Shown here piece after piece: positions 8,197-48,202 of a stretch of 64,000 nt of DNA; positions within the stretch are counted from its first letter, which is position 1; the number at the start of each line of letters is the position of its first letter. The translations under genes were made by a program, and so were the position numbers. Below the pieces are notes generated by a model. The model was not told the origin of the DNA. It saw nothing but the letters and a program-made list of their open reading frames with translations, and did not search any database. Origin of the DNA: Propionivibrio sp. (GTDB lineage Bacteria; Pseudomonadota; Gammaproteobacteria; Burkholderiales; Rhodocyclaceae). The DNA is taken from NCBI GenBank assembly GCA_016705685.1, contig JADJLB010000010.1, forward strand, positions 588,501 to 652,500, in the 5' to 3' direction.

Positions 8197-9459
8197 CTAG
8201 ACGCCTAGCAGCAGGCGGGCCGGGTCTTCCAGCGCTTCCTTCATGGTCACCAGACCGAGCACAGCTTCGCGTCCGTCGATGATGCGATGATCGTAGGACA
8301 TGGCCAGATAGTTGATCGGACGGATGACGATCTGGCCGTTTTCGACAACGGCACGATCCTTGGTGGCATGGATGCCGAGAATCGCCGATTGCGGCGGATT
8401 GATGATCGGCGTCGATAACATCGAACCGAAAATGCCGCCATTGGAAATCGAGAAGGTGCCTCCGGTCAGATCTTCCATCGACAATTTGCCGTCCTTGGCC
8501 TTCTGGCCGAATTCACCGATCTTCTTCTCGATGTCGGCGATGCTCATCTGGTCGGCATCGCGCAGAATCGGTACGACCAACCCGCGCGGGCTACCCACGG
8601 CGATACCGATGTCGATATAGCCGTGATAGACGATATCGGCGCCGTCCACCGAGGAATTGATGATCGGAAACTTCTGCAAGGCAGCAACAGCGGCCTTGAC
8701 GAAAAATCCCATGAAGCCAAGGCGAACGCCATGCGCCTTTTCGAATTTGTCGCCGTATTCCTTGCGTAGCGCCATCACGGGCGCCATGTTGACTTCATTG
8801 AACGTGGTCAAGATGGCATTGGTCGATTGCGACTGGACCAAGCGTTCGGCAACCCGAGCCCGCAGTCGGGACATGGGCACGCGCTGCTCCGGGCGACCGT
8901 CAAGTGGAATCGACACGCTTGGCGCGGGCGGCAGTGCAAACGAGGAAACCGATGCGGGCTTTGCGGTTGCCGGTGGCGTCGAAGCCGGCGCGGAGGCCGC
9001 TTTGGCCGGTGCGCCCAACGCGTCTTCCTTGGTGACGCGGCCACCGCGACCGGTACCGGTCACCTGGCTGGCAGAAAGTCCTTTCTCGTCCAGAATCTTG
9101 CGTGCCGCCGGCATGGCCACGCCGGCCGCCGTGGGCGTAGCCGGGCTGGCGGCGGGTGCGGACGGTGCTGCTGGCGCTTCCCTGACGGCGGCTGGCGCAG
9201 AAGACGCTACCGTCGCCGTGGCTTCGGTATCGATGCGGGCGATCAATTCGCCGGCGACGACGGTGTCGCCATTCTGTTTGATGATTTCTATCAACACGCC
9301 GCTCGCCGGCGCAGGAAGCTCAAGGACAACCTTGTCGGTCTCGATGTCAATCAGGTTTTCGTCCCGCGACACGGCCTCTCCGGCATTCTTGTGCCAGGTG
9401 ACCAGCGTCGCCTCGGCGACCGATTCTGACAACTGTGGAACTTTCACGTCGATGATCAT
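8197..9459 (-). CDS. sucB: Dihydrolipoyllysine succinyltransferase (E2 of 2-oxoglutarate dehydrogenase)
   Basis: Core subunit that transfers the succinyl group to CoA. Domains in order: a lipoyl domain with Lys43 in [10 protein letters not shown], an Ala/Pro-rich linker, a peripheral-subunit-binding domain (about residues 110-150, ending [11 protein letters not shown]), another Ala/Pro linker, and the catalytic domain with the active-site motif [12 protein letters not shown] chose ATG 9459 because GGAG lies five bases upstream; GTG 9465 is an alternative. The gene sits 12 bases from sucA and about 110 bases from lpdA, giving the E1-E2-E3 order. Confidence 0.97.
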
Positions 9460-9471
9460 GTTCACTCCGAT

Positions 9472-12321
9472 TTATGCGTATTTGTACTGTTCGATTTCGC
9501 CCAGAGCGGACTCGATCAGCGCTTTTTGTTGCGTGATGTGCTTGCTGAAATAACCCGCCGCCGGGGAGGGTGACGCCGGACGGGATACCAGCAACAGATG
9601 TTGCTTGCTGTTGAACGAACGGTCCAGATGTTGACGCGAGGCGATCCAGTACCAAGCCCCCTGGTTGCGCGGCTCTTCCTGACACCAGACGATCTCGGTG
9701 GCTTTGGGATACTTCGAAAGCTCGGCGGCAAAGGCTTCTTGCGGGAAGGGATAGAGTTGCTCAAGGCGGGCGATGGCAATCGTGTCGATATTCTTCTCGC
9801 GGCGTGCGGCAAGAAGTTCGTAGTAGATCTTGCCAGTGCAGAAGATGACGCGTTTCACTTTCTTGACATCGATCGGATCCACTTCGCCAATCACCAGTTG
9901 AAATCCACCCTTGGCGATTTCGTCCATGGTCGACACGGCGTCCTTATGGCGCAACAGCGACTTCGGCGTAAACACGATCAGGGGCTTGCGCTGTTTGCGT
10001 ATGGCCTGCCGACGCAGCATGTGGAAAACCTGTGCCGGCGTCGATGGCTGGCAGACTTCCATATTCATCTCGGCGCACAACTGCATGAAACGTTCGATAC
10101 GCGCCGAAGAATGCTCGGGTCCCTGCCCCTCATAGCCATGCGGCAGGAGCAGGACAAGACCGCAGGCACGGCCCCATTTTGTTTCGCCGGAAGCAATGAA
10201 CTGATCGATAACCACCTGGGCGCCGTTCACAAAGTCGCCGAACTGGGCTTCCCAGACCACCAGCTCGAAAGGATTCGACGTGGAATAGCCGAATTCGAAC
10301 GCCAGCACAGCTTCTTCGGAAAGCACGGAGTCGAAACACTGGAAGCTCGCCTGTTTTTCTTCCAGGTTGGCCAGTGGATAGTAGGTGCCTTCGTCCCAAT
10401 GCTCGCGTTTCTGGTCATGCAACGCGGCATGCCGGTGGAAGAAAGTGCTCCGCCCGACATCTTCGCCGGAGATGCGTACGCCATGCCCGGACACAAGCAA
10501 TGAAGCGTAGGCCAGGTTTTCCCCCATGCCCCAGTCGAAGGGCAAGCTGCCCTGACCCATCAGCCGGCGGTCTTCGATGATTCGCTTGACGCGGCCATGC
10601 AGGGTGAAGTTCTCGGGAATTGCGGTGAGGCGATCGGCGAGGCGCTTGATTTCCTTCGTCGGAATGGTGGTGTCGCAGTTTTCGATATACTTTGTCGGCA
10701 GGAAGGGCGCCCAGTCGATCGTCATCGGATGGGTATAACCGGCGATAACCGGGTTGTACAACAATTCTCCGCGATCGAGATGGTCACGGTAGCTCTGGAT
10801 CATGTGTTCCGGCCCATCGCCGGGCAGTACCCCTTCGGCGACCAAGCGGTCGGCATACAGCTTGCGCGTCCCGGGATGTGCCGATATCCGCTTGTACATC
10901 AGCGGTTGTGTGACCATAGGTTCGTCCTGTTCGTTGTGTCCGAGCTTGCGGAAACAGACGATATCGATGACGACATCTTTTCTGAACTCCTGCCTGAACT
11001 CGACGGCCAGACGGGTCACCAGCGCCACGGCTTCCGGGTCGTCGCCATTGACGTGGAAGATGGGCGCATTGGACATCTTGAAGATGTCGGTGCAATACAG
11101 CGACGAACGCGAATCGCGTGGATCGGAGGTGGTAAACCCGATCTGGTTATTGACCACGATATGCACCGTTCCACCCGTCCCGTAACCACGGGTCTGAGAA
11201 AAATTGAGCATTTCCTGATTGACGCCCTGGCCAGCTACGGCGGCATCGCCATGAATAAGCACCGGGAAAATCTTCTCTTGGGCTCCCTCGCCACGACGGT
11301 GTTGCCGGGCATAGGCCATGCCGATGACAACAGGGTTGACGATTTCGAGATGCGAGGGGTTGAATGCCAGGGTCAAATGGCAGGCGCCTCCCGGGGTCGA
11401 CACGTCGGATGCGTAGCCAAGGTGGTACTTGACGTCGCCGGAGGTCAGATCCTGCGCCTTCTTGCCCTCAAACTCGTCAAACAGCATCGCGGGTTCCTTG
11501 CCCAGCGTATTGACCAGGACGTTCAGACGCCCCCGATGCGCCATGCCGACAACAATGTCATCGACGCCCGCGCCGCCGGCAACACGCACCAGTTCGTCCA
11601 GTGCGACGATCAGGGATTCTCCGCCCTCCAGCGAAAACCGTTTCTGGCCGACGTAGCGGGTATGCAGATAGCGTTCGAGCGTCTCGGCCGCGGTCAGGCG
11701 TTCCAGGAATCGCAGCTTCTGGGCCGAAGTGTAGGTGCCCTTGGCGCGTATCGGCTCGAGGCGGGCCTGCAGCCAGCGCTTCTCGGTAATGTTGTCGATG
11801 TACATGTACTCGATGCCAATCGAACTGCAGTAGGTCTCCTTGACGACATCGAGAATCTGGCCAAAAGTGGATCGTTCGGCAACGCCTTTGAAGGATCCGG
11901 CGTTGAACGGCGTATTGATATCGGCATCGTCCAAACCATAGAACGCCGGGTCGAGCTCGTTGATGACCGGCCGCGTCTGGCGCTTGAGCGGGTCGAGATT
12001 GGCCCAGCGCGCACCGAGCGTGCGGTAAGCCGTAATGAGCTGCAGAACGCTGACCTGTTTCTTGTCATCGACGGGTCGCGACAAAGTGGCGCGATACCCC
12101 CCCAACAGGGCCTGCTTGGCAAAGGCATTCACCACCGGGAGATGGGGAACGTCGCGGGCTACCACGCCGGGCAGTTGCGCCAGCTTGTCGAAGTAGTCGC
12201 GCCAGTCGCCGGGAACCGAGGCGGGGTTGTCGAGGTAGTTCTCGTAGAGCTCTTCCACAAAGGGGGCATTGCCGCCGAAAAGTAGCGACGTTCCGCAAAG
12301 CTGATTCATCATGGCATTCAT
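9472..12321 (-). CDS. sucA: 2-Oxoglutarate dehydrogenase E1 component
   Basis: Thiamine-diphosphate enzyme that decarboxylates 2-oxoglutarate and succinylates the lipoyl domain of SucB. About 949 residues, the normal length. The N-terminus NAPFVEELYENYLDNP is the segment that docks to E2/E3 in this family. The thiamine-binding region carries HGDAAVAGQGVNQE and the nearby GTVHIVVNNQIGFTT. The ATG at 12321 is followed by a second good ATG at 12312, so the first three residues are uncertain; the reading frame further upstream has no family similarity. A hairpin at 12391-12414 separates it from gltA. Confidence 0.97.
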   Translation of the reverse strand: MNAMMNQLCGTSLLFGGNAPFVEELYENYLDNPASVPGDWRDYFDKLAQLPGVVARDVPHLPVVNAFAKQALLGGYRATLSRPVDDKKQVSVLQLITAYRTLGARWANLDPLKRQTRPVINELDPAFYGLDDADINTPFNAGSFKGVAERSTFGQILDVVKETYCSSIGIEYMYIDNITEKRWLQARLEPIRAKGTYTSAQKLRFLERLTAAETLERYLHTRYVGQKRFSLEGGESLIVALDELVRVAGGAGVDDIVVGMAHRGRLNVLVNTLGKEPAMLFDEFEGKKAQDLTSGDVKYHLGYASDVSTPGGACHLTLAFNPSHLEIVNPVVIGMAYARQHRRGEGAQEKIFPVLIHGDAAVAGQGVNQEMLNFSQTRGYGTGGTVHIVVNNQIGFTTSDPRDSRSSLYCTDIFKMSNAPIFHVNGDDPEAVALVTRLAVEFRQEFRKDVVIDIVCFRKLGHNEQDEPMVTQPLMYKRISAHPGTRKLYADRLVAEGVLPGDGPEHMIQSYRDHLDRGELLYNPVIAGYTHPMTIDWAPFLPTKYIENCDTTIPTKEIKRLADRLTAIPENFTLHGRVKRIIEDRRLMGQGSLPFDWGMGENLAYASLLVSGHGVRISGEDVGRSTFFHRHAALHDQKREHWDEGTYYPLANLEEKQASFQCFDSVLSEEAVLAFEFGYSTSNPFELVVWEAQFGDFVNGAQVVIDQFIASGETKWGRACGLVLLLPHGYEGQGPEHSSARIERFMQLCAEMNMEVCQPSTPAQVFHMLRRQAIRKQRKPLIVFTPKSLLRHKDAVSTMDEIAKGGFQLVIGEVDPIDVKKVKRVIFCTGKIYYELLAARREKNIDTIAIARLEQLYPFPQEAFAAELSKYPKATEIVWCQEEPRNQGAWYWIASRQHLDRSFNSKQHLLLVSRPASPSPAAGYFSKHITQQKALIESALGEIEQYKYA

Positions 12322-12390
12322 CTGTGCTCGAATCTCTTTAGTAGGTTCGGAAAATATGGCCGGACGATGAACATACCGACCAGACGAGAA

Positions 12391-12414
12391 AGGCGACAGC
12401 CATCGCTGTCGCCT
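12391..12414 (-). terminator. Perfect 10-bp hairpin between gltA and sucA
   Basis: AGGCGACAGC and GCTGTCGCCT form a perfect 10-bp stem with a four-base loop, about 23 bases after the gltA stop on the minus strand. The following bases read TTCTCG, a weak U-tract, so partial termination or mRNA processing between gltA and sucAB-lpdA is more likely than a full stop. Confidence 0.5.
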
Positions 12415-12437
12415 CCATGTACTGCTGACCCTGCTTC

Positions 12438-13733
12438 TTAGCGCTGGTTGAGCGGCGGGACATTGCGCGCGGGCGTTCCAATATAAAGTTGACGTGGACG
12501 ACCGATCTTGTATTCCGGGTCGGCAATCATTTCTTCCCACTGTACCATCCAGCCAACCGTACGTGCCAGGGCGAAAATACAGGTGAACATCGAGGTCGGG
12601 ATGCCGATGGCCTTCTGGACGATACCCGAGTAGAAATCAACGTTCGGATAAAGTTTCTTGTCGATGAAGTAACTGTCTTCCAGCGCAATCCGCTCGAGTT
12701 CCATGGCCAATTTGAAGAGTGGATCGTTTTCCAGGCCCTGTTCCTTCAAGACGTCGGCGCAGACCTTTCGCATCAGCGTGGCGCGCGGATCGAAGTTCTT
12801 GTAGACGCGGTGCCCGAAACCCATCAGCTTGAAGGGATCGTCCTTGTCCTTGGCACGTTTGATGAACTCGGGAACACGCGATACATCACCAATCTCTTCG
12901 AGCATCTTCAGACAGGCCTCGTTGGCGCCGCCATGCGCCGGCCCCCACAGGCAGCCGATACCCGCCGAAACGCAGGCATAGGGGTTGGCGCCGGACGAAC
13001 CCGCGAGGCGGACAGTCGACGTCGAGGCGTTCTGCTCGTGGTCGGCATGCAGGGTAAAGATGGTGTCCAGCGCGTGCACCAGAACCGGATTGGGCTTGTA
13101 GGTCTCGCACGGCGTACCGAACATCATGTGCATGAAATTAGCCGTATAGTCCAGATCATTTCGCGGATACATGAACGGCTGGCCGGTGTGGTACTTGTAC
13201 GCGTAGGCGACGATCGTCGGCAACTTGGCGATGATCCGGTTGTAGCTGATATTGCGGTGTTCGGCGTCGGAGAAATCTTCGGCTTCGTGATAGAACGCCG
13301 AGAGGGCGCCGACCACACCGACCAGAACGGCCATCGGATGTGCATCGCGACGAAAGCCCTGGTAGAACTTGACCAGTTGCTCGTGCAACATGGTGTGATC
13401 CTTGATCGTCGATTCGAAGGCGCTTTTTTCCTCGGTGTTCGGCAGTTCGCCGTGCTTCAGCAAGTAAGCCACATCAAGGAAGTTGCATTGGGTCGCCAGT
13501 TGCTCGATCGGATAGCCGCGATACAGCAGTTCGCCCTTGTCTCCGTCAATAAACGTGATCTTCGACCGGCATGCGGCCGTCGACAGAAAACCGGAGTCGT
13601 AGGTAAACATCCCAGTTTTGGCGGCCAATGCCCGAATGTCGATACAGTCGTTGCCAATGACCGGCGTCATGATCGGGAATTCGACGGGGTCCCGGCCTTC
13701 GATAATCAAGGTAGCTTTGCGTTCGGTGGTCAT
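12438..13733 (-). CDS. gltA: Citrate synthase (type II, hexameric family)
   Basis: Condenses acetyl-CoA with oxaloacetate at the entry of the TCA cycle. It is 431 residues, like E. coli GltA. Catalytic regions are visible: [15 protein letters not shown] with the active-site histidine, [15 protein letters not shown] with the second histidine, and [14 protein letters not shown]. The aspartate region near PNVDFYSG is also present. The N-terminal beta domain typical of the NADH-sensitive type II enzymes is present. The gene lies downstream of sdhE with a 70-base gap and probably belongs to the gntR-sdh operon. Confidence 0.97.
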
Positions 13734-13803: not shown

Positions 13804-14058
13804 CTACTTTACTCTGACATCCCGCAACATGTTCACAACTTCGGCCTGCAAAGAATTCTCACACTCGCGCTTGCCGGTAATCAGCGGCCACAGCTCGAGA
13901 TCCTCCATATCGGCCAACTGAATAAAAGCCACCGCCTGTGCCGGAGTCAAATCATGGAATTGTCTTTCGAGGAAACCTCCCAAAAGCAAATCCATTTCCA
14001 GCATGGCGCGGCGCGTACAACGCCAGCGCAAACGGTTAAGTTCTGCGCTGGATATCAT
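13804..14058 (-). CDS. sdhE: SdhE, FAD assembly factor for succinate dehydrogenase
   Basis: Small (84 residues) assembly factor (formerly DUF339) that promotes covalent flavinylation of SdhA. The N-terminal helix contains RRAMLEMD, where the family usually has the RGxxE motif; the glycine is replaced by alanine here. Downstream helices with FLERQFHDLTPAQ and MEDLELWPLI match the family. The ATG at 14058 shares a base with the sdhB stop (TGATG); a TTG three bases earlier is possible but unlikely. Its position inside the sdh-gltA operon supports the call. Confidence 0.93.
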   Translation of the reverse strand: MISSAELNRLRWRCTRRAMLEMDLLLGGFLERQFHDLTPAQAVAFIQLADMEDLELWPLITGKRECENSLQAEVVNMLRDVRVK

Positions 14059-14771
14059 CAAATTGCTCGCCTGACCATCATTTCCTTGATTTTGCCAATG
14101 GCTTGCGTCGGATTCAGATTCTTTGGACAGACTTCAACGCAATTCATGATGGTGTGACAACGGAACAAGCGATAAGGGTCTTCAAGATCGTCAAGGCGCG
14201 CGTTGGTTGCTTCATCACGCGTGTCGGCAATGAAACGATACGCGTTCAGCAAACCGGCGGGGCCGACGAACTTGTCCGGGTTCCACCAGAACGACGGGCA
14301 CGATGTCGAGCAGCAGGCACAGAGAATGCACTCATAAAGGCCGTTGAGTTCTTCGCGGTCCTCCGGGGTCTGCAGACGCTCGCGGTCCGGCGGTGGGGAG
14401 TCGTTGATCAGGTACGGCTTGACCGAGTGATACTGCTTGAAGAACTGGGTCATATCGACGATCAGATCGCGGATGACCGGAAGACCCGGCAGAGGGCGTA
14501 AAACAACTGGCTGTTTGAGTTCGCTGATTTCGGTCAGACAGGCCAAACCGTTCTTGCCGTTGATGTTCATCGCGTCGGAACCGCATATCCCTTCACGACA
14601 CGAGCGGCGGTACGACAGCGAATCGTCTTTGGCCTTGAGCTTGGTCAGCACGTCGAGCAGCTTGCGATCGATCGTCGGATCAATCTCGATCGAAATGTCC
14701 TGCATGTACGGCGCGTTGTCCTTGTCCGGATCGTAGCGGTAAATCTTGAATTGCATTGTTGGGCTTGACAT
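14058..14771 (-). CDS. sdhB: Succinate dehydrogenase iron-sulfur subunit
   Basis: Electron-transfer subunit of complex II carrying three clusters. The N-terminal domain has the [2Fe-2S] ligands in CREGICGSDAM and a later cysteine (LACLTE). The C-terminal domain has CILCACCSTSCP and CHTIMNCVEVCPK for the [4Fe-4S] and [3Fe-4S] clusters. An AGGAG sequence lies nine bases before ATG 14771, but ATG 14777 is also in frame, with a spacing of only three. It follows sdhA at about 30 bases. Confidence 0.97.
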   Translation of the reverse strand: MSSPTMQFKIYRYDPDKDNAPYMQDISIEIDPTIDRKLLDVLTKLKAKDDSLSYRRSCREGICGSDAMNINGKNGLACLTEISELKQPVVLRPLPGLPVIRDLIVDMTQFFKQYHSVKPYLINDSPPPDRERLQTPEDREELNGLYECILCACCSTSCPSFWWNPDKFVGPAGLLNAYRFIADTRDEATNARLDDLEDPYRLFRCHTIMNCVEVCPKNLNPTQAIGKIKEMMVRRAI

Positions 14772-14804
14772 AGTCATTGACTCCTGGGCGTGATGGTGCC
14801 GAGA

Positions 14805-16589
14805 TCAGTAGGCACGCGTCTTTAGCGCGATGGTTTCGACGGAAAGCGGCTTGAGTTGCACCGGTTTGTAGCTCAGTTTGTTGCCTTCACGGTGCCACAG
14901 GGTGTGTTTGAGCCACAGCTCATCGTCCCGCCCGTTCGGATTGGCGGCGGTATCCGGTGCGTCGTCGCGCACATGGGCGCCGCGCGACTCCTTGCGCGCC
15001 TCGGCAGACACCATCGTCGACTTGGCCACCTCGATCAGGTTGTCAAGCTCCAGCGCTTCGACGCGTGCCGTGTTCCAGGTCGCTGACTTGTCGCCTATTT
15101 CGGTCAGGTGCACCGCTTTCTCGATATCACAGATCTTGCTCACACCTTCCACCAGCATGTCTTTGAAGCGGAACACGCCGCAGTGTTTCTGCATCGTACG
15201 CTGCAATTCGAGACGCGTTTCATTGACGCTCGCACCGCCCTTCTGGGTATTCAGCCGGTTCAGGCGTGCCAGTGTGTAATCGGCAAAGTCTGCGGGCAGT
15301 TCCTTCAGGGCATTCGGGCCGGCCTTGACCGCCTCGACGACCGAATCACCAGAAGACTTGCCGAAGACCAGCAAGTCGAGCAGTGAGTTGGTGCCCAAAC
15401 GATTGGCGCCATGCACCGACGCACAGGCGCATTCGCCGGCCGCGTAGAAACCGGTCACGGTGCTGCCGTCGGGATTGACGACCTGACCATGGAAGTTGGT
15501 CGGGATACCGCCCATCTGGTAATGGCAGGTCGGCACCACCGGAATCGGCGCCTTGATCGGGTCGATGCCGGCAAACTGGATCGAAATTTCCCGGATACCC
15601 GGCAAACGCTTCATGATCGTCGCCGGATCGAGGTGCGTGATATCGAGCAAGACGAAATCCTTGGCCGGACCACAACCCCGACCTTCGTTGATTTCAGTCA
15701 CCATGGCCCGCGAAACGACATCGCGTGACGCCAGATCCTTGGCGTTCGGCGCGTAACGCTCCATGAAGCGCTCGTTATCCGAATTGCGCAGGATACCGCC
15801 TTCACCACGCACACCTTCGGTAATCAGCACGCCGGCGCCGGCCACGCCGGTCGGATGGAACTGCCAGAACTCCATGTCTTCGAGGGCAATACCGGCACGT
15901 GCCGCCATGCCCAGACCGTCACCCGTATTGATGAAAGCGTTGGTCGATGAGTAGTAGATGCGGCCGGCACCGCCAGTGGCAAAGATGGTGGCCTTGGCAT
16001 GGAAGGCGACGATCTCGCCGGTTTCCATTTCCAGGGCAATGACGCCCAAGACTTGCCCGTCGGCATCGCGGATCAGATCGAGCGCCATCCATTCAACGAA
16101 AAACTGGGTATTGGCACGCACGTTGCGCTGATACAGCGCATGCAGCATCGCGTGACCGGTGCGGTCGGCCGCCGCGCAGGCGCGACGAACGGGCTTTTCA
16201 CCAAAGTTGGACATATGCCCGCCAAACGGACGCTGGTAAATCTTGCCCTCGTCGGTCCGGTCAAATGGCATGCCGAAGTGCTCGAGCTCGACAACGGCCT
16301 CAGGCGCCTTGCGGCACATGAATTCGATGGCATCCTGGTCGCCGAGCCAGTCGGACCCCTTGACGGTGTCGTACATATGCCAATGCCAATGATCTTCCTC
16401 GGAGTTGCCCAGCGACGCCGAAACTCCCCCCTGCGCAGCAACGGTGTGCGAACGCGTTGGAAAGACCTTGGACAGCACAGCGGTTTTCAGCCCTGCTTCG
16501 GAAAGCTGTATGGCGGCACGCAGTCCGGCACCGCCGGCACCGACGATCACTGCATCAAATTTGCGTACGGAAATGGTTAGCTTGCTCAC
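14805..16589 (-). CDS. sdhA: Succinate dehydrogenase flavoprotein subunit
   Basis: Catalytic subunit oxidising succinate to fumarate. It is 594 residues. The FAD-binding motif VGAGGAGLRAAIQLSEAG is N-terminal, and the covalent FAD histidine is in TRSHTVAAQGG. Active-site segments GEGGILRNS and TCHYQMGGIPTN are present, and the C-terminal domain ends in the normal PVQLKPLSVETI region. The start is GTG directly adjacent to the sdhD stop. SdhE, encoded two genes downstream, is expected to assist attachment of the flavin. Confidence 0.98.
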   Translation of the reverse strand: MSKLTISVRKFDAVIVGAGGAGLRAAIQLSEAGLKTAVLSKVFPTRSHTVAAQGGVSASLGNSEEDHWHWHMYDTVKGSDWLGDQDAIEFMCRKAPEAVVELEHFGMPFDRTDEGKIYQRPFGGHMSNFGEKPVRRACAAADRTGHAMLHALYQRNVRANTQFFVEWMALDLIRDADGQVLGVIALEMETGEIVAFHAKATIFATGGAGRIYYSSTNAFINTGDGLGMAARAGIALEDMEFWQFHPTGVAGAGVLITEGVRGEGGILRNSDNERFMERYAPNAKDLASRDVVSRAMVTEINEGRGCGPAKDFVLLDITHLDPATIMKRLPGIREISIQFAGIDPIKAPIPVVPTCHYQMGGIPTNFHGQVVNPDGSTVTGFYAAGECACASVHGANRLGTNSLLDLLVFGKSSGDSVVEAVKAGPNALKELPADFADYTLARLNRLNTQKGGASVNETRLELQRTMQKHCGVFRFKDMLVEGVSKICDIEKAVHLTEIGDKSATWNTARVEALELDNLIEVAKSTMVSAEARKESRGAHVRDDAPDTAANPNGRDDELWLKHTLWHREGNKLSYKPVQLKPLSVETIALKTRAY

Positions 16590-16937
16590 TTAAATTCTCC
16601 ACAGAATCTGCACCGCCCAGCCGGCATAGCCGACCAGCGCCGCAGCGGTTGCAATCATCAGGAGCAGACGCAAGCCGTCCGGCTTGATGTAGTCCATCCA
16701 GATATCTCGGATACCGATCCAGACATGATAGAAAAGGCTGACGAAGAACAGGAAGCTGGCAAATTTCATGAACCCGTTGGCAAAAATACCACGCCAGCTC
16801 GCATGGGAATCTGGCGCGACCGCCAGGACTACCACCAACAATATGACGGTGTAGATCGCCATGATGATGGCCGTCGCGCGCTGAATGACCCAGTCCTTGA
16901 GGCCGTAATGCGCCCCGACAAGAATTCGATTTACCAT
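16590..16937 (-). CDS. sdhD: Succinate dehydrogenase membrane anchor subunit
   Basis: A 115-residue membrane protein with three predicted transmembrane helices, anchoring SdhAB and contributing to the quinone site. The N-terminal ILVGAHYGLKDWVIQRATAI and the FYHVWIGIRDIWMDYIKP segment, with a candidate haem-ligand histidine and quinone-site Asp-Tyr, match SdhD of betaproteobacteria. The ATG start overlaps the sdhC stop by seven bases. Confidence 0.93.
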   Translation of the reverse strand: MVNRILVGAHYGLKDWVIQRATAIIMAIYTVILLVVVLAVAPDSHASWRGIFANGFMKFASFLFFVSLFYHVWIGIRDIWMDYIKPDGLRLLLMIATAAALVGYAGWAVQILWRI

Positions 16938-17323
16938 AGCACCTTTCCTCCAATGATCAGGGTCATGGCGATGCTCACCGCAAAAACTATCTTGCTGGAA
17001 AGACGCGCCGATTCAAGGTCGATTCCCTTGTGCAAATCCAGTAACAGATAGCGGATGCCGGCACAGAAGTGGTGGAAATACAACCAGATCAGTCCGAGCA
17101 AGATCAGTTTGACCAGAGGATGGGCAACGAAACTCTTGCACAGGGCAAAGGTTTCGGGTGACGCAAGACTGCCCTCAAACAACCAGAGCAGAACGGGCAG
17201 GAGTAGAAAAAGCACTGCGCCGCTGACACGGTGTACGATCGACAGAATACCGGGTAGCGGTAGTCGTATCGTCATCAGGTCCAGGTTTTTTGGACGCTTC
17301 TTTTTTAGAATCATTTCTGCCAT
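16931..17323 (-). CDS. sdhC: Succinate dehydrogenase cytochrome b556 subunit
   Basis: A 130-residue membrane subunit with three hydrophobic helices. SIVHRVSGAVLF, containing the quinone-site serine/arginine region, and HHFCAGIRYLLLDLH, with the haem b histidine, are the two family signatures. The start is ATG 17323. A gap of 114 bases without a gene separates it from gntR, which is read in the same direction; I found no clear promoter there, so sdhC may depend on the promoter before gntR. Confidence 0.95.
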   Translation of the reverse strand: MAEMILKKKRPKNLDLMTIRLPLPGILSIVHRVSGAVLFLLLPVLLWLFEGSLASPETFALCKSFVAHPLVKLILLGLIWLYFHHFCAGIRYLLLDLHKGIDLESARLSSKIVFAVSIAMTLIIGGKVLW

Positions 17324-17437: not shown

Positions 17438-18178
17438 CTACCCCAATTCGTTGTGATAGTAAAAATTCTGAGTCGAGTAAAATCCGCGACGCCATTCCAC
17501 GGGTTTACTGTCATAGGTGTACGTGACGCGCTCGACAAGCAGCAAGGGGCTACCCTCGGCCACTTGCAACAACTCTGCACTCACCCTGTCGGCGGAAACT
17601 GCCCGCAAGCGTTCCTCCGCCCGAATAATGCGAACCGCATACCTGCTCTCGAACAGGCTGTACATGGATACCGCGACCGAATTGAGAATATCCAGTGACA
17701 GATCGGGAAACAACTCGCCGGGCAGATAGATTTCATCAAAAACAGCCGGTTCATCCCCAAATTTCATCAATCGGCGAACAATGTTGATTGGCGCACCCGG
17801 CTCCAGAGCGAGCGTTCGGGCCACATCGGCTCCCGCCTTGGCTCGCCAGCACTCCAAAGGAATGCTTTGCAACCGGAGCAGCTCGCCCTCATTGGAGGCC
17901 AACCGAAGGAAGCGAAAAAAGGATCGCGGATCGTCGTGAGTCGAAACGAAGGTGCCCTTGCCCTGGCGACGCACCAGCAGATTTTCGTTCGCCAACTCAT
18001 CAATTGCCTTGCGTACCGTACCCTGACTTACACCAAAGCGTTCGGCCAGTTCGGATTCGCTGGGTATGATGTCGCCCGGTTTCCATTCACCCGATTCTAG
18101 GCTTCTTGTAATCAGCGCCCTGATTTGTTGATAGAGCGGACTGAAGGTTGGGGAGTGGGTTGTTGCCGGCCGGTTCAT
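17438..18178 (-). CDS. GntR-family transcription regulator with UTRA domain (HutC type)
   Basis: A 246-residue regulator. The N-terminal winged helix-turn-helix (about residues 12-80) contains PLYQQIRALITR, PSESELAERFGVSQGTVRKA and RRQGKGTFV, classic for GntR. The C-terminal part (about 95-240) is a UTRA small-molecule-binding domain ending VERVTYTYDSKPVEW. ATG 18178 was chosen; the frame upstream is AT-rich promoter DNA. It heads the sdh-gltA-suc-lpd gene row and is divergent from mdh. The palindrome at 18229-18240 in its own promoter, repeated before aceA, is the likely operator. The effector is unknown; a TCA intermediate is an inference from context. Confidence 0.92.
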   Translation of the reverse strand: MNRPATTHSPTFSPLYQQIRALITRSLESGEWKPGDIIPSESELAERFGVSQGTVRKAIDELANENLLVRRQGKGTFVSTHDDPRSFFRFLRLASNEGELLRLQSIPLECWRAKAGADVARTLALEPGAPINIVRRLMKFGDEPAVFDEIYLPGELFPDLSLDILNSVAVSMYSLFESRYAVRIIRAEERLRAVSADRVSAELLQVAEGSPLLLVERVTYTYDSKPVEWRRGFYSTQNFYYHNELG

Positions 18179-18218
18179 ACTGCGAATTTCAGCACAAATT
18201 TCATTGCAAGTCCATTTT

Positions 18219-18224
18219 ATTATA
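18219..18224 (-). promoter_or_regulatory. -10 element of the gntR-sdh promoter
   Basis: On the minus strand this reads TATAAT, about 40 bases before the gntR start. No good -35 hexamer is present at the expected distance. The putative operator at 18229-18240 lies directly upstream, in the -10/-35 interval, where a bound regulator would block RNA polymerase. Confidence 0.5.
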
Positions 18225-18225
18225 A

Positions 18226-18241
18226 ATATCTTATATAAGAC
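18226..18241. promoter_or_regulatory. Putative GntR operator between gntR and mdh
   Basis: ATATCTTATATAAGAC with the perfect 12-bp palindrome TCTTATATAAGA at 18229-18240. The identical 16 bases occur at 46751-46766 upstream of aceA. The location in the divergent promoter of a GntR gene and mdh, and the palindrome length, fit a GntR dimer site. Binding is inferred, not shown. Confidence 0.7.
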
Positions 18242-18262
18242 ACATGACCACTTAAACGACAA

Positions 18263-18292
18263 TTGACACCACGCGAGCTTCGCTCGTATCAT
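18263..18292 (+). promoter_or_regulatory. Predicted sigma-70 promoter of mdh
   Basis: TTGACA (18263-18268) and TATCAT (18287-18292) are separated by 18 bases. The spacer contains a short CGAGC/GCTCG dyad. The predicted transcript has a leader of about 95 bases before the mdh start. The putative GntR operator lies about 22 bases upstream of the -35 hexamer. Confidence 0.6.
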
Positions 18293-18392: not shown

Positions 18393-19379
18393 ATGTCCAA
18401 ATCCCCAATTCGTGTCGCCGTGACCGGCGCTGCCGGCCAAATCGGTTACAGCCTGCTGTTCCGCATTGCGTCCGGTGAAATGCTCGGAAAGGACCAACCG
18501 GTCTTCCTCCAGCTGCTTGACTTGCCGCAAGCCCAGAAAGCCTGTCAGGGCGTCATGATGGAGCTTGATGACTGCGCTTTCCCGCTACTCGCCGGGATGA
18601 TCGCCACGGATGATCCGAACGTCGCGTTCAAGGATGCCGACGTTTGCCTGCTCGTCGGCGCGCGTCCGCGCGGACCCGGCATGGAGCGCGCCGATCTGCT
18701 CACCGCCAACGGCGCCATTTTTACCGTTCAAGGCAAAGCCATTGCCGAAAACGCCAAGGAAAACGTCAAGGTGCTAGTCGTCGGCAACCCCTGCAATACC
18801 AATGCGCTGATCGCCGCCTCTGCTGCCAAGAAGGTCGGTCGTACCGACCCGGCGAACTACCATGCCATGCTGCGCCTCGATTACAACCGTGCCGTCCTGC
18901 AACTCGCGCAGAAGACCAAGCGCCCGGTAGCCAGCTTCAAGAACCTGGTGGTCTGGGGAAATCACTCTCCGACGATGTACGCCGACTACCGTAACTGCAC
19001 GTCCAACGGTGACAACGTCAAAGCGCTGATCAACGACCCGGTGTGGAACAACGATGTATTCCTGCCGACCGTCGGCAAGCGTGGCGCTGCCATTATCGAA
19101 GCACGTGGCCTCTCTTCCGCCGCGTCCGCCGCCAACGCCGCGATCGACCACATTCATGACTGGGCCCTCGGTTCGGATAACTGGGTCACCATGGGCGTAC
19201 CAAGCGACGGTTCCTATGGCATCCCCGCCGGTATCGTGTTCGGCTTCCCCTGCGAGTGCAAAGGCGGTTCCTTCAAGATCGTTCAAGGACTCGAAATCGA
19301 CGATTACTCGCGCGAGAAAATCAACAAGACCCTCAAGGAACTCACCGACGAGGCTGAAGCCGTCAAGGCCATGCTCTAA
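18393..19379 (+). CDS. mdh: Malate dehydrogenase
   Basis: NAD-dependent oxidation of malate to oxaloacetate, the substrate of GltA encoded nearby. It is 328 residues of the betaproteobacterial, cytosolic-like type: the NAD-binding [17 protein letters not shown], the mobile-loop arginines in [16 protein letters not shown], and the catalytic histidine in [13 protein letters not shown] are visible. ATG 18393 has an AGGAG ribosome-binding site eight bases upstream. It is divergent from gntR and ends at an intrinsic terminator. Confidence 0.98.
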
Positions 19380-19401: not shown

Positions 19402-19428
19402 AACCGCAGCCCGTCTGCGGTTTTTTTT
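19402..19428 (+). terminator. Intrinsic terminator after mdh
   Basis: AACCGCAG and CTGCGGTT form an 8-bp stem with a five-base loop (CCCGT), followed by an uninterrupted T-run. It starts 22 bases after the mdh stop. Confidence 0.9.
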
Positions 19429-19510
19429 GGCTTGGATTCGGCGTTGCCGGCTCGCGATTGTGGTTGTGCGAAGCAGCGCGCGTAGCGCATCATCCTGCCG
19501 AGGAGGCGGT

Positions 19511-21388
19511 ATGGACGTCGAACTCGTAGAAATCCGCGATTTTCTTGCCGAATACGCGCCGTTTTCACTGCTCGACGCGGCCGCGCTGAATGCCTTGCCA
19601 AGGCGGCTTGCAGTACGTTACCTGCGGCGCGGCAGCGCCTTTCCACCGGTGAACGAAAACCAGCGCTGCCTCTATGCGGTCCGTCAGGGCGCGATCGAAC
19701 TACGAACCGACGATGGCAGGTTGACTGGCATGCTGTCCGAGGGCGATATTTTCGATCAAGACTGCTGTGCTGCGGCCGAGCATGCCATAGCCACCGAACG
19801 CAGCGTGGGTACGGCAATCGAGGACACGCTGCTCTACCTGCTCCCCTGCGAGACACTGCAGGCCTTGCGTCGCGAGAACCCGGCACTCGACGACTACTTT
19901 GTCAGGAGCGTGGCCGAACGGCTGCGTCACGGTCGCCACGCTCTCGGTAATGGGCCAAGCGAACGTACGAGCCTGATGACCCTGACGGTCAGCGATTTTG
20001 TTCGTCGCGCCCCGGTAGGCGCCGAATCGTCGCTGCCGATCTGCGAGGCAGCCCGGATCATGTCGCGGGAGGGCGTTTCGGCCCTGCTCATCGTCGATTC
20101 CGGGGCCTTGTGCGGCATCGTAACCGACCGCGACCTTCGCACCCGCTGCCTGGCTCAACATCTTGCGCCGAATGAGCCGCTGGCCCGCATCATGAGCACG
20201 GAGGTGGCCTGCATCGGCCCCGAAAGTGCCGCTTTCGAAGCGCTCATGTTGATGACCCGCAAAGGCATCCATCATCTGCCGGTCGTTGATGCATCCGGCA
20301 TTCACGGGCTGGTCTCGGCCACCGACCTGTTGCGCTGGCAAAGCACCGACACGGTCTTTCTCGTCGGCCTCATCGGCAAGTCGCCGGATGTCGAATCGCT
20401 GATGCGCGCCAGTGCGGAGTTGCCGGAGTTGCAGCTCCAGATGCAGGGCCACGGCGCCACGCCGGGTCAGGTTGGGCAGGCCGTAGCGTCGGTCAATGAC
20501 GCCATCACCTGCCGTCTGATCGAATTGGCGCTGCAGGAACTCGGGCCAGCGCCTGTCGCCTTCACTTGGCTGGCCTGCGGCTCGCAGGGACGCCATGAGC
20601 AGACGGTACATTCCGATCAGGACAATGCCCTGATTCTCGACGACGCCTTTGACGACGCGCTGCACGGCCACTATTTTTCGGCACTTGCCGAGCGCGTCAA
20701 TGACGGGCTCGACGCCTGCGGCTACCGCTATTGCCCCGGCAAGGTGATGGCCAGCAACCCGCTGTGGCGGCAACCGCAGCGAGCATGGATCGCCATCTTT
20801 CGCGGCTGGATCGGGCACACCGACGCCAGGGCGGCGATGCTGGCCGCAAACTTTCTCGACCTGCGCACCGTCTACGGCGACACGGCGCTGCTCATGCCGC
20901 TGCACGAGGCAATCAAGCAGGCCTATTCGAAGAGCGAAGTATTTCTCGCAAACATGGTCGCCAATGCGCTGAAGAACAAGCCGCCGCTAGGCTTCTTCCG
21001 AAACTTCACGCTGATCGCCGACGGTGAACATGCGGACAGCTTCGACATCAAGCGGGGCGGCCTGATTCCGGTCACGGACATTGCCCGCATACTCGCGCTG
21101 TCGAATGGCCAGGCCCGGATCGGCACCCTCGCCCGACTGCGCGAAGCCGCCGGAACACCCGTCCTGAGCGCAGAAAGCGCGCACGAACTTGAGGAAGCGT
21201 TCGAGTATTTTGGCAACCTGCGGCTGCAACATCAGGCGGAGCAGATTCGGCGCGGCCAGGCGCCCGATAACTACCTTTCGCCGGCGGCTCTGACCTCGCT
21301 GGAGCGAAGCAATCTGAAAGAAGCCTTTGCGGTGGTCGAGCGCATGCAAAAGATCTTGTCCCAACGCTACCCGGACCGTCCCGCCTGA
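19511..21388 (+). CDS. Cyclic-nucleotide-binding/CBS/DUF294 nucleotidyltransferase-like protein
   Basis: A 625-residue multidomain signalling protein. An N-terminal cNMP-binding-like beta-roll (about residues 15-140) is followed by a pair of CBS domains (about 160-285, with VSALLIVDSGALCGIVTDRDL and GIHHLPVVDASGIHGLVS). Next comes a DUF294 putative nucleotidyltransferase with GSQGRHEQTVHSDQDN (about 360-385), then the DUF294 C-terminal domain. The GS-x-GR-x-E and Asp residues suggest possible nucleotidyl transfer, as in GlnD-like domains, but the target is unknown. ATG 19511 has AGGAGG at a good distance. The end overlaps the exonuclease gene by one base, a pairing known from other proteobacteria. 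Confidence 0.9.
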   Translation: MDVELVEIRDFLAEYAPFSLLDAAALNALPRRLAVRYLRRGSAFPPVNENQRCLYAVRQGAIELRTDDGRLTGMLSEGDIFDQDCCAAAEHAIATERSVGTAIEDTLLYLLPCETLQALRRENPALDDYFVRSVAERLRHGRHALGNGPSERTSLMTLTVSDFVRRAPVGAESSLPICEAARIMSREGVSALLIVDSGALCGIVTDRDLRTRCLAQHLAPNEPLARIMSTEVACIGPESAAFEALMLMTRKGIHHLPVVDASGIHGLVSATDLLRWQSTDTVFLVGLIGKSPDVESLMRASAELPELQLQMQGHGATPGQVGQAVASVNDAITCRLIELALQELGPAPVAFTWLACGSQGRHEQTVHSDQDNALILDDAFDDALHGHYFSALAERVNDGLDACGYRYCPGKVMASNPLWRQPQRAWIAIFRGWIGHTDARAAMLAANFLDLRTVYGDTALLMPLHEAIKQAYSKSEVFLANMVANALKNKPPLGFFRNFTLIADGEHADSFDIKRGGLIPVTDIARILALSNGQARIGTLARLREAAGTPVLSAESAHELEEAFEYFGNLRLQHQAEQIRRGQAPDNYLSPAALTSLERSNLKEAFAVVERMQKILSQRYPDRPA

Positions 21389-22086
21389 TGCTGCTCGAAT
21401 GCGTTGAACGTTGCTTCGGTCATGATTTCAGGCGTCGCCGGCTGCTTGCCCGCGCGCCAGCCGGGCCGCTTCGCGACTACCTGGCGACGCCCTTCCCCGC
21501 CCCGGATGCGCCAAGCCGGGAGACTGCCTATCTGGCGCTCGATCTGGAGACGACTGGTGCCGACCCGGCGCGTAACGAAATCGTCAGCTTCGGCTGGGTG
21601 TGCATGGACGGCGAGCGGATCGACCTCGGATCGGCCCGCCACTACATTGTTCGACTTCGCGGCGCCGTCAGCGACGCATCGGCGGTGATCCATGGCATTA
21701 CCGACGATCAATGTCAGACGGGTTGCCATCTTGAGTCGGCACTCGCTGAGTTGCTGGCCACTTTGGCCGGGCGGGTGATGATCGCGCATCGGGCAGAAAC
21801 CGAACGCGGCTTTGTCGGCCACGCCTGTGAAGCCATTTATGGCGGACGCATTCTGATCCCGACGGTCGACACCCTGCGCATCGCCATTCGCGCCAAAGCG
21901 CGCCAGAATCGACCGTTGCAGCGCGGCGACCTGCGCCTCTCCGCCCTGCGCCAGAAGTACAGGCTGCCCCGCTACCGCGCCCACAACGCGCTCAGCGACG
22001 CGCTGTCGACGGCCGAATTGTTCCTCGCCCAACAGACCGAAAGCGTGGAGACGACGCTGTTGAAAAACTGGCTAACTTTCCGTTAG
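21388..22086 (+). CDS. DEDDh 3'-5' exonuclease (DnaQ/PolC epsilon-like)
   Basis: A 232-residue protein with an exonuclease fold. The ExoI motif is LALDLETTGADP, ExoII lies near VIHGITDDQ, and the ExoIII-like HNALSDALSTAELFL carries the catalytic His/Asp of the DEDDh type. The substrate cannot be told from sequence. It shares a TGATG junction with the CBS/DUF294 gene, so the two are coupled; in similar operons the pair is thought to act with acetate or solute transport, but none is present here. Confidence 0.88.
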   Translation: MLLECVERCFGHDFRRRRLLARAPAGPLRDYLATPFPAPDAPSRETAYLALDLETTGADPARNEIVSFGWVCMDGERIDLGSARHYIVRLRGAVSDASAVIHGITDDQCQTGCHLESALAELLATLAGRVMIAHRAETERGFVGHACEAIYGGRILIPTVDTLRIAIRAKARQNRPLQRGDLRLSALRQKYRLPRYRAHNALSDALSTAELFLAQQTESVETTLLKNWLTFR

Positions 22087-46616: not shown

Positions 46617-46750
46617 AACTCCCGGAAATGGTCGGTTTCGCGGTTTTTCAGCCCCTCTTTCCGCACTTTTCCCGACCGATAAGCCGCGTCTGCCGTTTGG
46701 CGCAACGCGCAGGATCGCGGACAGACGCATATCGAATCAAAAAATATCTT

Positions 46751-46766
46751 ATATCTTATATAAGAC
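46751..46766. promoter_or_regulatory. Putative GntR operator upstream of aceA
   Basis: ATATCTTATATAAGAC, identical over 16 bases to the site at 18226-18241 between gntR and mdh, including the palindrome TCTTATATAAGA (46754-46765). An extra left half-site, TATCTTAT, directly precedes it (from 46745), so two dimers or a shifted site may bind. It ends three bases before the -35 hexamer of the aceA promoter. Confidence 0.7.
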
Positions 46767-46768
46767 TA

Positions 46769-46797
46769 TTGCCGCTTGCAAAAAACCTCTCTATAAT
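46769..46797 (+). promoter_or_regulatory. Predicted sigma-70 promoter of aceA
   Basis: TTGCCG (46769-46774) and a perfect TATAAT (46792-46797) are separated by 17 bases. Transcription from about 46804 gives a leader of roughly 100 bases before ATG 46904. Confidence 0.75.
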
Positions 46798-46903: not shown

Positions 46904-48202
46904 ATGAGTACACGTGAACAACAAATCGCCGAACTTGAAAAAGACTGGGCCGAAAACCCCCGTTGGAAAGGAATCAAGCGTGGCTACTCGGCCGCCGACG
47001 TTGTTCGTTTGCGCGGCTCGTTCCCGATCGAATACACCATCGCCCGTCGCGGCGCCGAAAAACTCTGGAACCTGGTCAATACCGAGCCCTATGTCAATTG
47101 CCTGGGCGCATTGACCGGGGGCCAAGCCATGCAACAGGTCAAGGCTGGCGTAAAAGCCATCTACCTGTCCGGTTGGCAGGTCGCAGCGGACAACAACGGC
47201 TATGCCGCGATGTACCCCGACCAGTCACTGTACCCCGTCGACTCCGTGCCGAAGGTTGTCGAGCGCATCAACAACTCGTTCCGCCGCGCCGACGAAATCC
47301 AGTATTCCAAGAACATCGATGCCGGCCACAAAGACTACGTCGATTACTTTGCACCGATCGTTGCCGACGCTGAAGCCGGTTTCGGCGGCGTGCTCAACGC
47401 CTTCGAGCTGATGAAAGCCATGATCCGTTCTGGCGCCGGCGGTGTGCACTGGGAAGACCAGTTGGCCTCGGTCAAGAAATGCGGCCACATGGGCGGCAAG
47501 GTCCTGGTGCCAACGCAGGAAGCGGTCCAGAAGCTCATCGCCGCGCGTTTCGCGGCCGACGTCTGTGGCGTGCCGACGCTGGTCATCGCGCGTACCGATG
47601 CCGAAGCGGCCGACCTGCTGACTTCCGACTATGACGAAAACGACAAGCCTTTCGTTACCGGCGAGCGTACCGCGGAAGGGTTCTACAAGACCAAGAAGGG
47701 CCTGGGGCAAGCGATCTCGCGAGCTGTGGCCTATGCGGCCTACGCCGACCTCGTGTGGTGCGAAACCGGCACGCCGGATCTGGAATTTGCCCGCAAGTTC
47801 GCCGAGGGCGTACACGCCAAGTTCCCGGGGAAAATGCTCGCCTACAACTGCTCGCCTTCGTTCAACTGGAAGAAGAATCTCGACGACGCCACCATCGCCA
47901 AATTCCAGAAAGAACTCGGCGCCATGGGCTACAAGTACCAGTTCATCACCCTCGCCGGCATCCACAACATGTGGTACCACATGTTCGATCTGTCGCAGGA
48001 CTATGTGAAACGCGGTATGACGGCCTACGTCGAAAAGGTTCAGGAACCCGAGTTCGCGGCGCGGGATCGCGGCTACACCTTTGTCTCGCACCAGCAGGAA
48101 GTCGGGACAGGTTACTTCGACGAAGTCACGACCGTCATCCAGGGCGGCGTCTCATCGGTCACCGCGCTGACCGGTTCGACGGAAGAAGAGCAGTTCCACT
48201 GA
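46904..48202 (+). CDS. aceA: Isocitrate lyase
   Basis: Cleaves isocitrate to succinate and glyoxylate, the first step of the glyoxylate shunt. It is 432 residues. The catalytic motif [14 protein letters not shown] contains the nucleophilic cysteine; Mg-binding segments [12 protein letters not shown] and [11 protein letters not shown] precede it, and [13 protein letters not shown] and the C-terminal region are also conserved. ATG 46904 was chosen ([15 protein letters not shown]); the longer frame adds only four residues. No malate synthase gene is present in the window. It ends at a strong terminator. Confidence 0.98.

Follow-up and report, generated by a model that had tools for sequence, protein, structure and literature searches.

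The described system closest to the one analysed here is that of SdhR, a little-studied regulator of the HutC subfamily, to which the motif TCTTATGTCTTATATAAGACATAAGA was given in the relevant part of PMC4494728, citing PMC3370838. In our literature search the core of this motif was found printed only in that part of PMC4494728, and among the papers listed in searches on SdhR none was found to describe aceA or acnB control by this regulator. We analysed a 64,000-nucleotide stretch of DNA from a Propionivibrio sp. (the window), in which a palindrome located between a GntR-type regulator gene and mdh recurs in front of aceA. With a probability of roughly 0.92, both palindromes are operators of the adjacent regulator, this HutC-type GntR protein is SdhR, and the core of its regulon is as described here. 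The regulon would comprise sdhR-sdh, mdh, aceA and acnB, the last of these lying beyond the set proposed in an initial annotation of the window. Both the regulator and the motif are already known, and it is their reach and the promoter layout that are made clearer here.

The palindrome in the window and in the whole genome

The 16-base identity reported in the initial annotation was borne out, as ATATCTTATATAAGAC was read both at 18226-18241 and at 46751-46766, and the core of 12 bp, TCTTATATAAGA (18229-18240 and 46754-46765), is the perfect palindrome it was said to be. Allowing up to two mismatches, the core was matched four times in the window as against 0.31 expected from the mean of shuffles. 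A search of the whole genome (3,458,321 bases searched, 97% complete), of the kind that the initial annotation had suggested, returned only two exact copies of the 12-bp core in the 3.46 Mb, both inside the window, and added a single-mismatch site before acnB which that annotation had overlooked and whose count equals that of the reversed control. Thus three places were found at up to one mismatch (two exact, one before acnB) versus one for the reversed control, and 19 at up to two mismatches versus 51, so that only the exact sites stand out by count alone. The two-mismatch sites of the genome were considered as extra targets and rejected, being rarer than the reversed control, and since the control outnumbers the motif at this level no additional targets are claimed in the window's genome. 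Scored with the operator matrix described below, the 11 new two-mismatch places all gave -7.4 or lower; the scoring covered the window scan and these 11 sites, and of four places without a locus two fall within the window scan and two outside the scoring.

Organisation of the sdhR/mdh and aceA loci

The first predicted operator, in its 26-bp form, occupies 18222..18247 between sdhR and mdh, and has the top matrix score of the window (31.1), operator 1 itself being included in the sdhR/mdh operators that formed the training set of the matrix. The sdhR gene (17438..18178, minus strand) encodes a protein of 246 aa, a HutC-subfamily GntR regulator with a GntR winged helix (Pfam, 4.5e-23) and a UTRA domain (1.4e-32), both above gathering score. 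Behind it, in the same direction, follow sdhC and sdhD, encoding the membrane subunits (16590..17323, minus strand; Pfam Sdh_cyt in each frame), sdhA and sdhB (14058..16589, minus strand; FAD_binding_2, Succ_DH_flav_C and Fer2_3), a short stretch, the citrate synthase gene gltA (12438..13733, minus strand; Citrate_synt, 3.4e-140), and sucA and sucB for the E1 and E2 components of 2-oxoglutarate dehydrogenase (8197..12540, minus strand; OxoGdeHyase_C and 2-oxoacid_dh). The sdhR promoter would also drive sdhCDAB, and perhaps gltA-sucAB behind them. The malate dehydrogenase gene mdh (18393..19379, plus strand; Ldh_1_N and Ldh_1_C) is divergent, and right after it lie a DUF294 nucleotidyltransferase with CBS domains (19427-21388, plus strand) and an RNase_T exonuclease frame (21388-22086).

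For sdhR the predicted -35 is TGGACT (18209..18214, minus strand), 14 bp from the operator core, and the predicted -10 is TGAAAT (18186..18191, minus strand), which ends 7 bp ahead of the ATG. A TATAAT-like string near 18216 was also considered as the sdhR promoter and rejected, since it is not conserved, as opposed to the pattern T[AG]GAC-N17-TGAAAT, which is conserved at a near-fixed distance from the ATG. The placement in the initial annotation of the site just upstream of the -10 of the regulator gene, where it would block that promoter, is therefore probably wrong: the conserved promoter TGGACT-N17-TGAAAT lies further downstream, and the core is 14 bp upstream of its -35. The predicted mdh promoter, TTGACA-N18-TATCAT (18263..18292, plus strand), has a -35 which begins 22 bp past the core.

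The second predicted operator (46747..46772) lies before aceA and has the second best matrix score of the window, 25.5. Its upstream half-site TCTTATA corresponds to 46747-46753, and in both window operators the 12-base core is exact and the outer arms of TCTTATGTCTTATATAAGACATAAGA are kept only in part. The predicted aceA promoter, TTGCCG-N17-TATAAT (46769..46797, plus strand), has its -35 beginning 3 bp past the operator core, and aceA itself (46904..48202, plus strand) encodes an isocitrate lyase matching the NCBIfam equivalog NF011645 at 796.4 bits (cut-off 562).

Identity of the regulator

A matrix built from 96 sdhR/mdh operators of the family gave the consensus TCTTATGTCTTATATAAGACATAAGA, and this consensus equals the SdhR motif published in the part of PMC4494728 concerned letter for letter over 26 bases; it is this identity that leads us to assign the regulator as SdhR. 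None of the 25 NCBIfam models listed for the window protein (28 matched) reached its cut-off. HutC proper, the regulator of histidine utilisation (TIGR02018), scored 121.1 bits against a cut-off of 220, and the phosphonate regulator PhnF (TIGR02325) 107.2 bits against 156.8, both below.

Distribution of the operator in the family

The family set consisted of 121 genomes of the GTDB family, the window's genome included. The exact core was present in 100 of them as against three for the reversed control, and in 60 of the 68 sampled genera. Among the exact sites listed (73 sites, 72 loci examined), 33 were at sdhR/mdh, 30 at aceA and 10 elsewhere. The proposal in the initial annotation of one regulon around the GntR/UTRA protein, joining the sdh operon, mdh and aceA, is supported by this comparison of relatives and widened to acnB.

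The sites located elsewhere included an exact core before a DUF485 gene at two loci (L033 and L077). In L033 the next gene encodes a sodium:solute symporter, and the pair was read as yjcH-actP, for acetate uptake, the symporter of L077 being read from its N-terminus only. In one genome (L070) the exact core lay between the divergent genes for monomeric isocitrate dehydrogenase and aceK, two genes which set the flux at the glyoxylate branch. In three genomes (L067, L083 and L103) it preceded atpI of the ATP synthase operon, and in each of them the N-terminus of the next gene product was taken for that of atpB; such an arrangement would place ATP synthesis, too, under this regulator. The others preceded a gene for a thiamine-diphosphate enzyme (L086), a chemotaxis receptor gene (L006) and a gene read by eye as rpsF (L079), the tenth being at L019.

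Matches were found in 116 genomes for SdhR, 105 for AceA and 114 for AcnB, and the upstream sequences used came from 113 genomes for sdhR and 102 for aceA; the 63 acnB regions, from 62 genomes, are only a part of those available, half of them being the best-scoring loci. A core match of 11-12 of 12 bases was found upstream of sdhR in 96/113, of aceA in 90/102 and of acnB in 32/63, with shuffles at 0.3% or less. With the matrix, 93/102 aceA and 42/63 acnB regions scored above the 99th percentile of the shuffles, as did 111/113 for sdhR, the gene on which the matrix was trained (the misses being G082 and G021). The aceA regions which missed were those of G087, G027, G017, G011, G071, G074, G119 and G006, in which SdhR is present, and of G116, which is without it. 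The 21 misses among the 63 acnB rows comprised six from SdhR-less genomes, ten in which acnB is no more than 4 kb away from sdhR, on the side of mdh, so that transcription from the mdh promoter may reach it, and five others (G021, G053, G079, G018 and G022).

The full operator contains four TCTTAT-like half-sites. Counting an outer half-site as present at 5 of 6 bases, the upstream one was kept at aceA in 69/93 and the downstream one, where the -35 sits, in 4/93; at acnB they were kept in 4/42 and 7/42, respectively.

Co-occurrence of SdhR and the operator core

At E <= 1e-20 an SdhR match was present in 116 of the 121 family genomes. The five which lack it, two of them from the window's own genus, had no exact core (Fisher 1e-4, a test that like the one for the order ignores phylogeny), and the operator was absent from all six of their acnB copies and from their single aceA. 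In G052 and G105, both of the window's genus, acnB is kept, and matches to SdhR (1e-20) and isocitrate lyase (1e-60) are absent together. Sixteen of the 116 SdhR-bearing genomes were without an exact core; the 15 examined among them all passed the matrix threshold before sdhR.

In a sample of 200 order genomes, 75/91 with SdhR (E <= 1e-55) contained the core versus 28/109 without (Fisher 3e-16, phylogeny again being ignored). Seventeen of these 28 belong to four families in which the core is almost universal among the sampled members: f5, f14, f21 and f27, with the exact core in 5/5, 3/3, 4/5 and 5/5 sampled members without an SdhR match at 1e-55. In these families SdhR could have diverged, or the motif could serve another purpose. 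In the class, a match at 1e-70, a cut-off that would miss weaker SdhR relatives, was obtained in two of 143 sampled genomes, namely that of the window and a second one from the same order. Eighty named relatives, ranging from Rhodocyclaceae and Accumulibacter to Burkholderia, Pandoraea, Bordetella and Oxalobacteraceae, were also compared, and in 77 of them 11-12 of the 12 core bases were matched upstream of sdhR.

The site before acnB

The third SdhR-like site of the window's genome lies outside the window (L003, G000:C10:232558-232569), with one mismatch, 157 bp before the acnB ATG. It reads TCTTATA-TCATATATAAGA, its upstream half-site being the same as at aceA. Aconitase B was the best NCBIfam match of the frame behind it, the 447-residue fragment that was scanned scoring below whole-protein cut-offs. 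The site is credited because relatives carry the operator there, its own count (one place) being equal to the control (one place).

In the acnB regions a TATAAT-type -10 lies two bases past the core in 21/63, and a TATCAT overlaps the core in nine more, the window's genome among them. The operator thus overlaps the predicted acnB promoter in 30/63 upstream regions, which suggests repression at acnB. The same two patterns were found upstream of sdhR in 2/113 and 6/113, and upstream of aceA in 0/102 and 0/102.

Promoter layout and spacing

All promoters considered here are predicted. At aceA the -35 begins 3-4 bp past the core in 80/90 family genomes, the spacer is 17 bp in 81/90, and the -10 is TATACT in 69/90 and TATAAT in 4/90; the distance from the -10 to the ATG varies (standard deviation 55). 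At mdh the -35 begins 13-14 bp past the core in 74/96 family genomes, and is a perfect TTGACA in 81/96; the remaining 22 show gaps of 2, 6, 7, 8, 9, 10, 11, 12, 17, 20, 22 and 23, some of these promoters being doubtful. At sdhR, where a promoter was found in 95, the -35 (mostly TAGACG or TGGACG) lies 14 bp past the core in 68/96, and other gaps from 0 to 21 were seen in 27/95; this spacing was taken from conserved hexamers with a pattern chosen after looking, as automatic scoring in most cases settled on the mdh -35 read in reverse complement. In the window itself the gaps are 3 at aceA, 14 at sdhR and 22 at mdh.

The named loci were halved by similarity rank, which is not strictly taxonomy, into a nearer half (L304-L345) and a farther half (L346-L383, mainly Burkholderiaceae and Oxalobacteraceae). 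In the nearer half the sdhR gap was 14 in 27/41 and the mdh gap 13-14 in 24/41; in the farther half the sdhR gap was 22-24 in 27/32 and the mdh gap 12-13 in 31/36. Reckoned from the hexamers, the core centres lie at about -45 at aceA and at about -55 at mdh and sdhR. Gaps of about 3, 13 and 23 would differ by roughly a helical turn each, which is what a need for SdhR to face RNA polymerase would predict. The other gaps seen at mdh and sdhR speak against this, and the spacing could in part reflect shared ancestry.

A predicted leaderless sdhR mRNA

The stretch from 18176 to 18214 on the minus strand suggests that the sdhR mRNA is leaderless, without a Shine-Dalgarno sequence. The predicted sdhR -10 ends 6-8 bp ahead of the first in-frame start in 80/94 family genomes, and a Shine-Dalgarno-like string was found in one; the rule of taking the first in-frame start after the -10 biases these figures to short distances. 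The same distance was 6-10 bp in 40/41 of L304-L345 and 7-8 bp in 14/15 of L346-L383, where a promoter was found for 15/38 with a looser -35 pattern. Papers on Burkholderia cenocepacia (PMC4603805) and Cupriavidus metallidurans (PMC7563307) report regulators with leaderless transcripts, so that the kind is already known, and a word search of the main texts of both returned neither GntR nor sdh.

Mode of action and alternative explanations

The operator precedes the predicted -35 at sdhR, mdh and aceA alike, and its near-fixed distances, about one helical turn apart, suggest that SdhR probably contacts RNA polymerase at these promoters. A carbon metabolite would bind the UTRA domain and alter DNA binding, and the genes of the citrate cycle and the glyoxylate bypass would then respond together. 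The chances are about even that SdhR activates, or acts in both senses, at these three promoters. The fuller proposal is of a dual SdhR, made from a leaderless mRNA, which, acting on one helix face upstream of the -35, at about -45, -55 and -65, would activate mdh and aceA as well as its own sdh operon, and would repress acnB by sitting on the promoter. SdhR would be a central-carbon switch of many betaproteobacteria, reaching in some genomes to acetate uptake, isocitrate dehydrogenase and its kinase, and ATP synthase. We put this forward tentatively, as possible rather than probable.

The proposal of a dual SdhR has to be weighed against that of a plain repressor acting everywhere, which at sdhR, mdh and aceA would exclude RNA polymerase or its alpha subunit upstream of the -35 until released by a metabolite. 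Identity and regulon would be the same, and only the sense of regulation would differ. HutC proteins are mostly repressors, a habit of the subfamily which counts against activation by SdhR. The perfect TTGACA of mdh in 81/96 points the same way, as such a promoter may need no activator, and so does the overlap of the operator with the predicted acnB promoter in 30/63. Simple blocking, however, needs no near-invariant spacing between operator and -35, such as is kept at aceA while the distance from the -10 to the ATG varies, nor would it call for operator positions that shift by about 10 bp from aceA to mdh and sdhR. On this balance, plain repression falls a little short of an even chance.

That the sites belong to another regulator of central metabolism, which sdhR merely adjoins, seems improbable. 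It would account for the 28 of 109 order genomes with an exact core and no SdhR match, 17 of them in the four families where nearly all sampled members carry it, but some of these may have an SdhR too diverged to reach the 1e-55 cut-off. Against it also stand the co-occurrence of SdhR and core in family and order, the operator at sdhR's own promoter region in 111/113, and the publication of the motif as that of SdhR in the part of PMC4494728 cited above. A chance likeness of AT-rich promoter elements is scarcely credible. The core does resemble a TATA-like sequence, and the reversed control occurs in 19/200 order genomes; in the family, however, this control was found in 3/121 genomes only, and position and gene are conserved, which refutes chance for the exact family sites. 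Chance may still account for a single-mismatch site taken alone. If SdhR is the regulator, as we propose, one protein with one well-defined operator would span the citric acid cycle and the glyoxylate bypass. Close relatives of SdhR occur among the named genomes of Accumulibacter, organisms used in phosphorus removal.

Comparison with known systems

The best solved-structure match of the window's SdhR was PDB 3cnv, a 'putative GntR-family transcriptional regulator' (E 2.2e-37), which covers the UTRA part at residues 88-245; the alignments with the solved YvoA and DasR span residues 13-239 and 32-239, respectively. HutC, PhnF, DasR and NagR/YvoA have the same two domains as the window's SdhR, but differ from it in operator and genes. 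E. coli FadR is a GntR-family protein which both represses and activates; it differs from SdhR in subfamily, motif and genes. With the described SdhR, in contrast, the likeness extends from the GntR winged helix and UTRA domain of the window protein to a gene which adjoins the sdh operon and an operator consensus identical to the one printed in the cited part of PMC4494728.
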